The position numbers and the translations under genes are program-made. 64,000 nt of DNA from Flavobacteriaceae bacterium (lineage in GTDB: Bacteria > Bacteroidota > Bacteroidia > Flavobacteriales > Weeksellaceae). This document shows positions 32,659 to 38,976 of this stretch, one piece after another (the first letter of the stretch is position 1; every line of letters begins with the position of its first letter). The stretch covers positions 1 through 64,000 of the forward strand of contig JAGLAZ010000005.1 of NCBI GenBank assembly GCA_018260565.1. The letters are read 5' to 3'. A model generated the notes under the pieces. It was not told the origin of the DNA. It did no database searches and worked only from the letters and a program-made list of their open reading frames with translations.

Positions 32659-33702
32659 TTATTTTCCTGGTACAGCAGGCAATGTAAAATGGAATTTAGT
32701 ACCCTCCAAATACACGCTTTCTGCAGATATAGTCTGGTGATGTGCTTCCAGGATGTGTTTTACTATTGCGAGGCCTAAGCCACTACCTCCTTCCCTTCTC
32801 GTCCGGCTACTTTCCACGCGGTAAAATCGTTCAAATATTCTGCTTAAGTTTTCTGATTTTATACCCATACCGTTATCTTCTACAGATATAACTACAAGCT
32901 TAGTTATTATATTGGTACGCACGATGATACTCGGATTATCGCGTTGGGCATAATGAATTGCGTTTGCAGTGAGATTTAATAAGACCTGAAAAATTTTATG
33001 TCTATCGGCTCGTACAAAAATTTGCGTATTTGGTGAATCTAAAATTAATTGAGCATTGGTTTGCTGCGCCTCTCCCTCCAGTACTTCAAAAACCTCTTTA
33101 ACTACTTGATTAATATCAAAGTTTTCTTGGTGAAGAACGATCTCACCTGCCTCGAATTTATTAATCATATCTAGATCACTCACCACGGTAAGGAGTCTAT
33201 CAACTGATTTTGTAATCCGGAACAAGTATTTTTCTAAAATTTCAGGATCCTCCGAAGCGCCTTCTAACAAGGTATCTGCATAGCCCTGAATAGCAAATAA
33301 AGGGGTCTTGAGTTCGTGTGCTACATTTCCTACATATTCCTTTCTATAGGATTCCAACTCCTTCATAGATATCAACTGGCTATTCTGTCGTTGGGTGATA
33401 CGGGACACTTTCTCCCCTACTTCCATTAAATTTAAACTGGATAGTGAATCAGGCCTTTTGAAAAAATGCTGCGGCAAGAATTTGCTTATTTTTTTTAATT
33501 GTCTTTTACTAAAGATTTCAAATAATCTGTGAAGTATCAGATAATTGATAACTTGAACCAAGATTATAGCGATAATAATAAATATCCATAATTCCCACCC
33601 TAAATTTAGATAATTTCTGCAATATTCTATAAACAAGGCCACGAGAAACATGGCTATAGATATAGTGATACTTGCGATAAGGGGAATTCTTTTTACTTTC
33701 AT
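32659..33702 (-). CDS. PhoR-like sensor histidine kinase
   Basis: Two transmembrane helices (about residues 9-28 and 37-60) leave almost no periplasmic sensor. The kinase core has the H-box with His129 (NVAHELKTPLFAIQGYAD), N-box (LLNLTANAIHYAQ), G1 box (VEDNGMGI), F-box and the glycine-rich GGSGLGLAIVKH. Minimal-sensor PhoR proteins detect phosphate through the Pst transporter and PhoU, so this architecture fits phosphate sensing; the assignment is an inference. The start overlaps the regulator stop by one base (TAATG), which couples translation. Confidence 0.9.
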   Translation of the reverse strand: MKVKRIPLIASITISIAMFLVALFIEYCRNYLNLGWELWIFIIIAIILVQVINYLILHRLFEIFSKRQLKKISKFLPQHFFKRPDSLSSLNLMEVGEKVSRITQRQNSQLISMKELESYRKEYVGNVAHELKTPLFAIQGYADTLLEGASEDPEILEKYLFRITKSVDRLLTVVSDLDMINKFEAGEIVLHQENFDINQVVKEVFEVLEGEAQQTNAQLILDSPNTQIFVRADRHKIFQVLLNLTANAIHYAQRDNPSIIVRTNIITKLVVISVEDNGMGIKSENLSRIFERFYRVESSRTRREGGSGLGLAIVKHILEAHHQTISAESVYLEGTKFHFTLPAVPGK

Positions 33703-34382
33703 TAGCGCATAGTAAGCTTATAACCAATACCTTTCAAAGTTTCTATAGATCCCGCGCCTAATTTTTCTCTCAACCTACGAATATGTACGTCTATAGTACG
33801 CTCTCCTACAACCACATCATTTCCCCATACTTTTTCTAGTATTTCCTCTCGTTTAAACACTTTATCTGTATTGGAAGCTAAAAGATATAGAAGATCAAAT
33901 TCTTTTCTTGGTAGTATAAATTCTTCATTTTCTCGTTCAACTCGAAAATTATCTCTATTGATTTTAAGATCACCAATGCTTAAGATTCTAGATTGCTCCA
34001 CAGTTTTTATAGATAGCTGCAGCATCGCATTAATTTTAGAAATGAGGACTTTAGGCTTAATAACTTTAACTACATAATCATTAGCTCCTGCTTCATATCC
34101 TGCAAGATGAGTAAACTCCTCACTTCTAGCGGAAAGAAAAATAACTAAAGTATCCTTAATCTCTGGGGTATTTCGGATTTCCTGACACGTTTCTATGCCA
34201 TCTTTACCAGGCATCATCACATCGAGAAGGATAAGATCTGGCCGAACCTTTTTTGCGATTTCTAAGGCATCATCGCCATTATTGGCGGTAAAGACTTCGT
34301 AATTTTCTTTTTTAAGATTATACGCAATAATCTCAATTACATCCGGTTCATCGTCTACCAAAAGGATTTTTTTACCCAACAT
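33702..34382 (-). CDS. PhoB/OmpR-family response regulator
   Basis: The receiver domain has the acidic pair Asp10-Asp11 and the phosphoacceptor Asp54 (LLDVMMPGKDG), Ser84 and Lys106. The residue after Lys106 is Val107 where most receivers have Pro, an unusual change in the K-P switch. The winged-helix DNA-binding domain (about 130-226) carries EVFKREEILEKVWG-type and RTIDVHIRRLREKLG motifs. It pairs with the kinase downstream and probably binds the repeat array at 34456-34535. Confidence 0.93.
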   Translation of the reverse strand: MLGKKILLVDDEPDVIEIIAYNLKKENYEVFTANNGDDALEIAKKVRPDLILLDVMMPGKDGIETCQEIRNTPEIKDTLVIFLSARSEEFTHLAGYEAGANDYVVKVIKPKVLISKINAMLQLSIKTVEQSRILSIGDLKINRDNFRVERENEEFILPRKEFDLLYLLASNTDKVFKREEILEKVWGNDVVVGERTIDVHIRRLREKLGAGSIETLKGIGYKLTMR

Positions 34383-34455: not shown

Positions 34456-34535
34456 TTAACATTGCGTTCACATTACATTAGAGCCCGTAACAATTTCTTA
34501 ACATTTATTTCACATTACAGTAAACGCTTTTAACA
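34456..34535 (+). promoter_or_regulatory. Phased PHO-box-like hexamer array
   Basis: Six hexamers of the form (T/G)T(A/C)ACA lie at 34456 TTAACA, 34467 TTCACA, 34487 GTAACA, 34498 TTAACA, 34509 TTCACA and 34530 TTAACA. The steps are 11, 20, 11, 11 and 21 bp, so all sit on one helical face. The blocks 34454-34477 and 34496-34519 are a 24-bp direct repeat with 21 identities, offset by 42 bp. The tandem TT(A/C/T)ACA pattern with 5-bp gaps matches known PhoP boxes of Bacillus. The array reads toward the TonB receptor and lies between it and the phoBR-like operon. A T-rich TTTCTTTG at about 34547-34554 could be the activated promoter. Confidence 0.65.
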
Positions 34536-34554
34536 TGAGAAAATTTTTCTTTGT

Positions 34555-34732: not shown

Positions 34733-37531
34733 ATGCGTAAAACATTTTGTAAAAGTATCTTGGTACTGTCCATGTTCGCTGGCTGCGGATTAGCTTTAGC
34801 ACAATCCAATGTCATTGAAGGTAGGGTACTAGATGAAAAAGACAATACCCCAATATCTGGAGCCACTGTAAAGGTAAATGATAAGGAAGTAAAAACTGAT
34901 ATACAAGGTTATTACTCTATACCATTGGAACCAGGTTCTAATTATTCCATTACTGCTTTTACAAATGGATATAGTAGAAAAGAGATTGGTGAGGTGACTC
35001 TGAAGCCTCAGGAAAATACCCATCTTGATATCTTACTTAATAAACCTACCAGTTCTGAGCTAGGTGAAAGCAATATAAAAGAAGTTGTAATCCGTTCTAC
35101 GGCTCGAAGAGAAACAATAGCCTCTACAATCAGTCTTCAAAAAAACTCAGCAGTAGTTTCTCAGGTGATCGGCGTGGAAGCTATAAAGAGATCTCCAGAT
35201 AGAAATACGGGTGAAGTTTTAAAGCGTGTATCTGGTGTGAGTCTTTCTGAAGGACGCTATATTGTAGTAAGAGGATTATCTGATAGATATAACCAAGCAA
35301 TGCTTAATGGCATCCAGCTTTCAAGTACAGAACCCGATAAAAAAACTTTTTCTTTTGATCTATTTCCTGCCAGTGTAATAGAAACTTTGGTAATAAACAA
35401 AACTTTCATCCCAGAATATACTGGAGAATGGGCAGGTGGACTTATCCAAGTAAATACTAAAGATATTCCTACTAAAAATTTCTTTAATGCACAGATTGGA
35501 GTGGGTGGAAACTCAATCACATTAAATAAAGAGTTTTTAGTAAACCAAATAGGGAAATATGATTTCTTAGGAATAGATGATGGTAGTAGAAAACTTCCTG
35601 CAAACTTCCCTGCAAGAAATGCGTTCAGCGTCTTAGACAGTCAACAAAAAACTGCATTAGGAAAAGAATATGTGAAAAACTTTGGATATGATAAGATTGG
35701 ATATCCAGAAAATGTAGGTTTACAGTTCGACGGTGGTTTTAATACCAAGGTATTTGGTAAAGATGTTGGCGTAATTGCAGTTTTAAATTATAGCAATAAT
35801 AAAAGAAGAACGGAAACTGAAAACCGTTTTTTTACTATCAATGGTCTAAAGTCTGATGTAAACTTTGATTACGATACAGAGAAATACAGCAATGATATTA
35901 TTCTTGGAGGATTATTAAACTTTGCAATCAAGCTTAATAACAGTAATAAGATTTCCATTAAGAATATTATTACCAATAATTCAGTAAATCATGTGTCCCT
36001 TCGTACAGGAAAAGATTTTGAATTTGATCCAATAAATGGTACTAACATTCTTGCAAGAGAAGTAGGATTTAAAGAAACTACTTTCTATAATTCCACCATT
36101 ACTGGTAACCATAAACTTGATGATTCAGGTAGTTTATCTTTAAACTGGTATGGTAGTTTTGGGATATTAGATCAATATATCCCGCAGCTTCAGCGTTTAC
36201 AGTACAACCAAGCAACTAATGTAGCTGGTAATCCATACATCGCATTACTTTCCAGTGGTTTATCTCAAAAATCCGGTAGTTTCTTCTACTCTACCTTAAA
36301 TGATTACTTATATAATGGTGGTGGAGATATAGCTAAAACTTTCACCGTTGGAGATAAAAAACAAACGGTTAAAGGAGGTTATTTATTTCAAGTTAAAGAC
36401 AGAATCTATAATTCCCGACCGTTCTCAGCAAAATTAGAAGGCTATAATTTTGGATTATTAACGCAACCTTTCGAAACTATTTTTGACGCTTCCAACTTTG
36501 GAGCTGGGAAATTTAGCTTTGATGAAATATCTGGTAATCAATACCGATATATAGCCAATACCATTTTAAATGCAGGTTATATTCAGTTCGATAATAATAT
36601 TACGGATAGATTAAGAGCCGTTTGGGGATTACGAGTTGAAAACTTTGACCAAGTGGTAGGTAGTGTGAAAAAGAGTGACTCCCGTCATGTGTATTCTAAA
36701 GTTACAGATTATATGCCTGCCATAAATCTAACGTATAAGATCAATGATAAAATGAACTTTCGTGCAGCTGGATCTCAGACTGTAGTTCGTCCTGAATTTA
36801 GAGAGCTATCTCCTCAGGCTTATTATGATTTTGATTTAGGAGCTACCCTTATTGGTAATAAAGCTTTACAAAGAACTAAAATTACCAATGCAGATATACG
36901 ATATGAGTACTATCCAAGACAAGGCGAGATTCTATCTTTAGCGGCTTTTTATAAAAACTTTAAAAATCCTATCGAACTTTATTTTAATCAATCCGGAGCT
37001 GGTACCAGTAATACATTTAACTACCTAAATGCCGATAAAGCTGATGCATACGGACTAGAATTTGAGTTTCGACGCAAATTGGATTTTTCTGATATGATGA
37101 AGAATTTTACATTCGGAGGTAACGTAGCCTATATTAACAATAAAGTAACGGATGCTGCTACCAATGTGGATCGCCCTATGCAAGGACAATCTCCTTATAC
37201 TGTGAATGTATCCTTACAATATGATTCAGAAAGTGCAGGATTATCATCTACTTTATTATTTAATATGATAGGAAGAAGAATTCAATATGTAGGAAATGAT
37301 CAAGTACCACCTATTTGGGAAGCTCCAAGAGCATTATTGGATTATCAGATAGCTAAAAAGATTTGGAATAAAAAAGGAGAAATCAAATTAAATATTTCCG
37401 ATATCTTAAATCAAAGAGCCAAATTTTATCATGATTTAAATGATAATAAGAAATATGATGATGCGGATGCACTCGCTATTCGCAGAAATACAGGAACTAA
37501 CGTGAGTCTTACTTTAGGCTACAACTTTTAA
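34733..37531 (+). CDS. TonB-dependent receptor, candidate phosphate-regulated
   Basis: The 932-residue protein has a signal peptide (about 1-23, ending LALAQ) and a carboxypeptidase-regulatory-like domain (about 27-105). The plug follows (about 135-245) with EVLKRVSGVSLSEGRYIVVRG-type motifs, then a beta-barrel ending in TLGYNF. It should import a large or scarce substrate with TonB energy. The substrate is unknown; the hexamer array upstream and the divergent PhoBR-like pair suggest phosphate-containing compounds. The lipoprotein gene 29 bp downstream is probably its partner. Confidence 0.9.
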   Translation: MRKTFCKSILVLSMFAGCGLALAQSNVIEGRVLDEKDNTPISGATVKVNDKEVKTDIQGYYSIPLEPGSNYSITAFTNGYSRKEIGEVTLKPQENTHLDILLNKPTSSELGESNIKEVVIRSTARRETIASTISLQKNSAVVSQVIGVEAIKRSPDRNTGEVLKRVSGVSLSEGRYIVVRGLSDRYNQAMLNGIQLSSTEPDKKTFSFDLFPASVIETLVINKTFIPEYTGEWAGGLIQVNTKDIPTKNFFNAQIGVGGNSITLNKEFLVNQIGKYDFLGIDDGSRKLPANFPARNAFSVLDSQQKTALGKEYVKNFGYDKIGYPENVGLQFDGGFNTKVFGKDVGVIAVLNYSNNKRRTETENRFFTINGLKSDVNFDYDTEKYSNDIILGGLLNFAIKLNNSNKISIKNIITNNSVNHVSLRTGKDFEFDPINGTNILAREVGFKETTFYNSTITGNHKLDDSGSLSLNWYGSFGILDQYIPQLQRLQYNQATNVAGNPYIALLSSGLSQKSGSFFYSTLNDYLYNGGGDIAKTFTVGDKKQTVKGGYLFQVKDRIYNSRPFSAKLEGYNFGLLTQPFETIFDASNFGAGKFSFDEISGNQYRYIANTILNAGYIQFDNNITDRLRAVWGLRVENFDQVVGSVKKSDSRHVYSKVTDYMPAINLTYKINDKMNFRAAGSQTVVRPEFRELSPQAYYDFDLGATLIGNKALQRTKITNADIRYEYYPRQGEILSLAAFYKNFKNPIELYFNQSGAGTSNTFNYLNADKADAYGLEFEFRRKLDFSDMMKNFTFGGNVAYINNKVTDAATNVDRPMQGQSPYTVNVSLQYDSESAGLSSTLLFNMIGRRIQYVGNDQVPPIWEAPRALLDYQIAKKIWNKKGEIKLNISDILNQRAKFYHDLNDNKKYDDADALAIRRNTGTNVSLTLGYNF

Positions 37532-37560: not shown

Positions 37561-38976
37561 ATGAAACTAAAATTCTTATTCTTCACGATTGTTGCAGGTA
37601 TCGCTGTTACATCTTTAGACTCTTGCCGTAAGATTGAAGAAGATGGCCAAGTAATTAATCAGCCTACCATAGGAACTAGTCCTACAGTAGAAAATACAAT
37701 TCTTACTGGAAAGATTTCCTCAAATCTTACTTTAAAAGCTAATACTACTTATAAATTAAGAGGTTTGGTATATGTTACCAATGGTGCAACTCTTACAATT
37801 GAGCCAGGTACTAAAATTGTTGGTGAAGCTGACAAAAATGGTGGTCTTATTATCACAAGAGGTGCAAAAATTAATGCTGAAGGAACTGCTTCCAACCCTA
37901 TTATTTTTACTTCTGAAAAACCTAATCCTAAAAGAGGTGATTGGGCAGGTGTAGTGCTTTTAGGAAAAGCCCCTGTAAACACTTCTTACAACGGAACTGC
38001 TGGTGTTGGTGAAATGGAAGGAGGTGTTAATGATGCTGATGGTAATGGACTTTACGGTGGTACAGATGCTGCTGATAACAGTGGTGTTCTTAAATATGTA
38101 CGTATAGAATATGCAGGCTATGCATTTTTACCAGATAAGGAAATTAACGGTCTTACTTTCGGTGGTGTAGGTAATGGTACCAAAATAGATTATGTAGAAG
38201 TTGCATATGCTAATGATGATAGCTTTGAGTGGTTTGGTGGAACTGTAAACTGTACTCACCTAATCGCTTATAAAGGATTAGATGATGATTTCGATACTGA
38301 TAATGGTTATTCAGGGAAAATCCAATTCGGTATTGCTGTAAGAGACTCTCAAGTAGCTGACGTTTCTGGATCAAATTCTTTTGAATCTGATAATGATGCT
38401 AATGGATCTTCATTAAATCCTCAGACTTCTGCGGTATTCTCCAATATGACAGTCATTGGTCCAGTACAAACAGGTAATACTACTGCAATTAACACTTTAT
38501 TCCAAAATGCGTTACAGATAAGAAGAAATTCTTCTATTTCTATCTTTAATTCTGTGTTTATGGGATATCCTACAGGTCTTTATATAGATGCTACTAAAGG
38601 TTCACCAACTGATATTAACATTACTGCAAACAAGTTAGTATTCCAAAACAATATTTTGGCTGGGATGACAACTCCATTAAAATATGGACCTTCCACAAGT
38701 ACGCCAACTTCATTTAGTACTGCTGCTCTTCAAACTTGGTTTGATGGTTTAGGAAATACAATTTTAGCAAGTACTGCAGATGTAAAACTGGCTAATGCTT
38801 ATGCTCCAGCCGGAACTACACCTAACTTCTCTCCTGCTTCAGGATCACCTCTTCTTAGTGGTGCTACATTTACTCATCCTTACTTAACTTCAGGATTTAC
38901 TTCTGTAGCTTATAAAGGAGCTGTGAAAGATGGTGCTGATTATTGGTATGCCGGTTGGACTAACTTCAACCTATAG
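37561..38976 (+). CDS. Surface lipoprotein, predicted parallel beta-helix
   Basis: A lipobox (SLDSC, Cys22) follows the signal peptide. The 450-residue mature part has repeating short strands and Gly/Asn turns (TLTIEPGTKIVGE, INAEGTASNPIIFTSE), as in right-handed beta-helices. Asp-rich loops (VNDADGNGLYGGTDAADN) could bind calcium. Asp/Asn-rich segments recur in the middle. No catalytic motif is recognised. Its position directly after the TonB receptor resembles receptor-lipoprotein pairs in which the lipoprotein captures the ligand, but this is inference. Confidence 0.8.
   Translation: MKLKFLFFTIVAGIAVTSLDSCRKIEEDGQVINQPTIGTSPTVENTILTGKISSNLTLKANTTYKLRGLVYVTNGATLTIEPGTKIVGEADKNGGLIITRGAKINAEGTASNPIIFTSEKPNPKRGDWAGVVLLGKAPVNTSYNGTAGVGEMEGGVNDADGNGLYGGTDAADNSGVLKYVRIEYAGYAFLPDKEINGLTFGGVGNGTKIDYVEVAYANDDSFEWFGGTVNCTHLIAYKGLDDDFDTDNGYSGKIQFGIAVRDSQVADVSGSNSFESDNDANGSSLNPQTSAVFSNMTVIGPVQTGNTTAINTLFQNALQIRRNSSISIFNSVFMGYPTGLYIDATKGSPTDINITANKLVFQNNILAGMTTPLKYGPSTSTPTSFSTAALQTWFDGLGNTILASTADVKLANAYAPAGTTPNFSPASGSPLLSGATFTHPYLTSGFTSVAYKGAVKDGADYWYAGWTNFNL

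Follow-up and report, generated by a model that had tools for sequence, protein, structure and literature searches.

A tandem 11-bp repeat array between a phoB-like gene and a TonB receptor operon is very probably the PHO box of a flavobacterial PhoBR system

The PhoP box of Bacillus subtilis consists of TT(A/C/T)ACA repeats, and the PHO box of Escherichia coli replaces the −35 element. E. coli PhoB binds direct 11-bp units, arranged head to tail before the core promoter, where the activator touches sigma; the Streptomyces PhoP box reads GTTCACC (PMC4415409). In Bacteroides fragilis, PhoB binds directly to the pstC promoter, carried on a 512-bp fragment, and is needed for its expression (PMC3547664). 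The closest described cluster is the low-phosphate cluster of Flavobacterium johnsoniae, composed of Fjoh_0543 (phoR), Fjoh_0544 (phoB), Fjoh_0545 (receptor, domains pf07715/pf13715/pf14905) and Fjoh_0546 (lipoprotein FII), whose log2 changes at low phosphate are 0.76 (p 0.056), 3.1, 8.0 and 9.9 respectively, i.e. an induction of approximately 2^8 to 2^10 for the receptor and the lipoprotein (PMC8115612). The term 'Pho box' is absent from the main text of that paper (PMC8115612). A pectin-lyase fold has been reported for Fjoh_0546. No definition of a Bacteroidota PHO box was found in the open-access literature; an earlier description in a subscription paper is possible.

The window, i.e. the whole 64-kb stretch of DNA analysed, carries a similar cluster, with the following features. 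The consensus used for the −7 boxes is TAnnTTTG (PMC9723704).

32659–33702, minus strand: phoR-like sensor kinase, 347 aa
33702–34382, minus strand: phoB-like OmpR-family response regulator, 226 aa
34411–34418, minus strand: predicted phoB −7 box, TACCTTTG, a perfect TAnnTTTG, 45 bp from unit 1
34456–34472, plus strand: upstream sub-array of the putative PHO box, units 1 and 2, TTAACA-N5-TTCACA, in most of the family 44–46 bp away from the phoB −7 box
34487–34514, plus strand: downstream sub-array of the putative PHO box, units 3 to 5, GTAACA-N5-TTAACA-N5-TTCACA
34520–34525, plus strand: degenerate unit GTAAAC within the −33 region, 30 bp before TTTG; family form (T/G)AAAC
34530–34535, plus strand: hexamer TTAACA, 20 bp upstream of TTTG, with low conservation in the family
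34546–34554, plus strand: predicted receptor −7 box, TTTCTTTGT, compared with TAnnTTTG
34733–37531, plus strand: TonB-dependent receptor, 932 aa, matching Fjoh_0545 in domains and gene order
37561–38976, plus strand: lipoprotein, 471 aa, with the gene order and lipoprotein character of Fjoh_0546 (form FII)

The best NCBIfam models for the regulator are those of PhoB, yet its scores stay below the curated cut-offs (210.1 bits against TIGR02154, cut-off 296.2; 188.5 against NF053854, the Bacteroides PhoB model, cut-off 270). The kinase best matches PnpS/WalK/PhoR-type models, likewise under cut-off. The receptor contains Plug, CarboxypepD_reg-like and beta-barrel domains. For the lipoprotein, neither Pfam nor NCBIfam yielded a match, and no PDB sequence matched significantly. 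Matches to the regulator were obtained in 57 of the 59 genomes searched, its own included, the weaker ones being other response regulators. Among the matches listed, its own genome holds only one close PhoB-like regulator, followed by a receiver-only protein (46%) and a full-length one (32%). The orthologues of phoB adjoin pst in three genomes (G042, G045 and G049), a linkage expected of a functional PhoB orthologue.

An earlier note on this DNA had described a six-unit array of hexamers, and all six words were recovered (34456 TTAACA, 34467 TTCACA, 34487 GTAACA, 34498 TTAACA, 34509 TTCACA and 34530 TTAACA), with the claimed steps of 11, 20, 11, 11 and 21 bp. The 24-bp repeat with an offset of 42 bp was also reproduced, 21 of 24 positions being identical from start 34454, and 20 of 24 if the repeat is started one base earlier. 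Counted from the TTTG of the receptor −7 box, units 3, 4 and 5 lie 63, 52 and 41 bp upstream. Five of the units stand as described, but the sixth hexamer falls in poorly conserved columns; what is conserved instead is GTAAAC at 34520, which keeps the 11-bp register. The hexamer at 34530 is possibly an extra proximal unit confined to this species; units at 19 bp, close to its 20 bp, occur in other Pho promoters. The steps, proposed as multiples of about 10.5 bp, are in fact 11 bp inside the sub-arrays, with a flexible 19–21 bp between them. Most units of the window match the Bacillus-type TT(A/C/T)ACA, but the unit is looser and closer to TT(A/C)A(C/T/A)A, forms such as TTAATA, TTCATA and TTAAAA being found in the family.

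The array was compared with chance expectation within the 350-bp gap between the regulator gene (33702–34382, minus) and the receptor gene (34733–37531, plus). The gap contains six [TG]T[AC]ACA words against 0.86 expected (p ~0.0002, 5,000 dinucleotide shuffles). Moreover, when the five-unit layout 0/11/31/42/53 was scored with a matrix derived from other genera, the array reached 31.8, a value equalled by none of 20,000 dinucleotide shuffles of the gap (maximum 26.4), and the second-best independent place in the window scored 16.5. The bare 17-mer is not enriched when mismatches are allowed: with at most two it matches the window 14 times against 12.7 expected, and the genome scan for TTAACA-N5-TTCACA suggested in the earlier note, with at most one mismatch, returned 25 matches against 20 in the reversed control. 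A genome-wide scan thus needs the −7 register added to the pattern.

The motif is kept together with the genes in the orthologous phoB–receptor gaps, whereas its loss there had been named in the earlier note as a refutation. Of the 29 other phoB loci in the family, 20 have units at about 0, 11, 30–32, 42 and 53, and the receptor TTTG at 93–96 bp. Column conservation across the family places the degenerate unit (T/G)AAAC at +33 to +37 from unit 3, in the 11-bp register. On the other side, the phoB −7 box lies 44–46 bp from unit 1 in most loci, with variants at 67 and 35 bp (approximately +22 and −10), and its distance to the upstream pair stands out with z ~10. Across 78 named phoB loci the spacing of 11 bp gives z 12 on the receptor-facing strand and 6.1 on the other; the next-highest spacing is 8 bp (z 4.1, receptor-facing strand). 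In four genomes (G003, G008, G011 and G031) phoB and the receptor are apart. There the array has stayed with the receptor, its third unit 42 bp from TTTG; the upstream pair has mostly stayed at phoB and is still found there after the receptor moved away in L036, L045 and L041. These split loci fit a two-sided operator. One further locus (L051, genome G035) carries a unit of about 90 bp in about two copies between phoB and the array, which is displaced to about 320 bp.

Other Pho promoters were analysed with a matrix trained solely on phoB-side units, the genome of the window being left out. Upstream of pstS in 12 genomes, triples of units spaced 11 bp apart reach z ~10 on the sense strand and 5.9 on the opposite one, and other spacings do not exceed 2.2. 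A −7 box was then picked in each promoter blind to the units, and unit scores were taken by distance. Across 22 promoters, comprising 12 of pst, 6 of receptor-phytase, 2 of lipoprotein and 2 of MauG-PhoX genes, the units peak at 19 (z 5.6), 30 (z 11.6), 41 (z 15.1), 52 (z 8.9) and 63 bp (z 4.2) upstream of the −7 TTTG. Shifted by +1 bp, smaller shoulders appear at 31 (z 4.6) and 42 (z 4.9), and positions 7 and 76 show isolated weak signals. None of the 22 is orthologous to the phoB gap, so that common descent cannot account for the way the gene sets agree; relatedness does inflate the z-scores of the phoB set and of pst promoters that are orthologous to one another, but not the agreement between unrelated promoters. 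The same peaks at 19, 30, 41 and 52 bp recur in pst clusters class-wide (37 promoters, 20 loci from other families; z 5.7, 6.8, 12.2 and 8.7). A lack of enrichment at pst, phoH, phosphatase or similar genes would have refuted the earlier note; the matrix and register tests show the motif to be enriched before operons of the pst, phytase and PhoX types. Three hallmarks of a PHO box are found, namely 11-bp direct repeats, a position upstream of phosphate-starvation genes and a fixed placement relative to the core promoter.

The register was absent from 19 promoters belonging to the remaining genes of the window. A partial enrichment did appear among genes near phoB; it presumably comes from other Pho genes of the cluster, and distant arbitrary regions were therefore chosen as the control instead. 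Of 78 promoters taken from such regions in related genomes, a single one scores at least 9 (the window array scores 13.5 and the pst promoter of the same genome 11.5), and offset 41 still shows a weak z of 3.3. The pst promoters of L124 and L129 and the phytase promoter of L323 do not fit the register, and no well-placed array was found at the FI-type lipoprotein paralogues. Measuring distances to strict TAnnTTTG boxes in the named loci left a histogram with too few entries to be of use. With a receptor-type pattern in two Flavobacterium genomes, 1-mismatch matches were at noise level and were set aside; two of the four exact matches are the phoB–receptor gap and two lie near housekeeping genes. 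Three likely low-phosphate promoters (L322, L324 and L326) carry TTCG instead of TTTG in the −7 box (TAGCTTCG, TAGTTTCG and TACTTTCG), possibly a weaker, activator-dependent variant.

In front of the pst operon of the window's genome (contig C4), TTAATA-N5-TTCATA precedes TAACATTG by 41 and 30 bp. Scanning this genome with a first register pattern gave no perfect match, and pst was among the three matches with one mismatch. A second pattern gave two perfect matches, the window array and a site on contig C37 before a T9SS-type protein. With up to two mismatches the two patterns gave 18 and 31 matches, against 6 and 23 in the reversed control, and most two-mismatch matches are probably due to chance. 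The C37 site (L403, C37:1107–1162, minus) comprises TTCACA, TTCATA, GTAATG and GTAACA at 52, 41, 30 and 19 bp from TATTTTTG; the protein downstream has 287 aa and a T9SS sorting tail, and belongs to no other family. A two-mismatch match at about 99.3 kb on contig C5 consists of four 11-bp units before a lipoprotein with weak resemblance to PhoX, followed by a MauG-like protein 34% identical to the MauG of the Flavobacterium PhoX operon; a lipoprotein/PhoX-MauG arrangement is induced by low phosphate in F. johnsoniae (Fjoh_2477; PMC8115612). The gene of the C5 lipoprotein (L432, start at about 99290, minus, outside the window) has an in-frame TGA at codon 109 in a frame that runs to codon 488, which may reflect a pseudogene, an assembly error or recoding. 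Before another TonB receptor, a candidate for a further Pho gene, TTAACA-N5-TTAAAA lies at 41 and 30 bp from TTTG (L391, C17:6589–6633, minus). On contig C45 the start of a Cas9-like protein (MKTILGLDLGVSSIGWALV; L386) was noticed beside a chance-level motif match.

Taken as a whole, PhoB, the regulator of phosphate starvation, very probably docks at the repeated TTAACA-like words. Comparison of sequences gives us high confidence that the array serves a flavobacterial PhoBR system as its PHO box, with binding, activation and autoregulation as its presumed functions. The earlier reading of the site as a PHO box bound by PhoB is thus supported, the binding being predicted. When phosphate is exhausted, phosphorylated PhoB would occupy the tandem 11-bp units (TT(A/C)A(C/T)A plus 5 bp) head to tail. 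The downstream sub-array (units 3 to 5 and the unit at 34520) is helically locked to the receptor −7 box. Because the array ends with a unit in the −33 region, PhoB most likely replaces the −33 element; as this position resembles that of the E. coli box at −35, activation is likely to proceed by PhoB touching the sigma factor. PhoB would thereby recruit RNA polymerase to the receptor-lipoprotein operon. The upstream pair, inverted and locked to the divergent phoB −7 box, most likely lets PhoB boost its own synthesis; such autoregulation is probable, and its positive sign is presumed. More broadly, we consider it likely that a single PHO operator code is used class-wide in the Bacteroidia, namely TT(A/C)A(C/T)A every 11 bp, starting 8 (mod 11) bp upstream of TTTG, together with a two-sided version at phoB that locks the divergent promoters in separate registers via the flexible 19–21 bp step.

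Other origins of the array were weighed against this reading. TTAA-like words are frequent in AT-rich gaps and the bare 17-mer with mismatches occurs at chance level, so that low complexity or chance periodicity of the intergenic region could be invoked. We give this next to no credence, since no shuffle attains the layout score, 11 bp is the dominant spacing, the −7 register is common to non-orthologous promoters and the controls are nearly clean; the shuffle and cross-promoter tests led to its rejection. It is also improbable that another OmpR-family regulator binds the array and that its presence at Pho genes is incidental. Recognition of tandem repeats is common to OmpR-family regulators, further response regulators are encoded in the same genome, and the regulator misses the PhoB cut-offs of NCBIfam, but the arrays follow the Pho gene set (pst, phytase, PhoX), they adjoin the phoB-like gene itself in most genomes, and the genome offers no second close PhoB-like regulator among the matches listed. 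A more serious possibility, although we regard it as the less likely one, is that the array serves the receptor operon only, the phoB side being passive or repressed by PhoB, which would be compatible with the PHO-box reading. The units do face the receptor and are inverted relative to phoB, and phoB induction in F. johnsoniae is modest (log2 3.1). However, the pair holds its 44–46 bp to a near-perfect phoB −7 box (variants about +22 and −10 bp, z ~10), and it mostly remains with phoB after the receptor has left.

A PHO box with a fixed register would matter in the Bacteroidota, where the TAnnTTTG promoter is unusual and few regulator sites are defined. It would give a simple rule for predicting phosphate-starvation genes from sequence, including the secreted phosphatases and receptors relevant to phosphorus turnover in soil, sea and gut. 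In the genome of the window the register-aided scan yielded the pst operon, the window array, the T9SS-type secreted protein and the lipoprotein-MauG operon. Moreover, the register offers a way into the interplay of activators and the sigma factor in Bacteroidota.

Compared with known systems, the flavobacterial array shares with the E. coli PHO box the 11-bp direct repeats in front of the core promoter, whereas the core is CTGTCAT there and TT(A/C)A(C/T)A here; it also differs in the TAnnTTTG promoter, in arrays of two to six units and in the 19/30/41/52 register. The PhoP boxes of Bacillus and Streptomyces are close in unit sequence (TTAACA/TTCACA; GTTCAC) and in their 11-bp tandem spacing, but here the phylum and the promoter are others, the fifth and sixth positions are looser, and a TonB receptor-lipoprotein operon is the neighbour. 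Like the B. fragilis system, this one would place a Bacteroidota PhoB at pst promoters; there the binding was shown on a 512-bp fragment, and the passages on it state no site sequence (PMC3547664). The F. johnsoniae PhoBR cluster (PUSIV, Fjoh_0543–0546), strongly induced at low phosphate, has the same order phoR-phoB-receptor-lipoprotein and the same receptor domains (PMC8115612), and the addition to that knowledge is the cis site. What is probably new here is a PHO box adapted to the Bacteroidota promoter.
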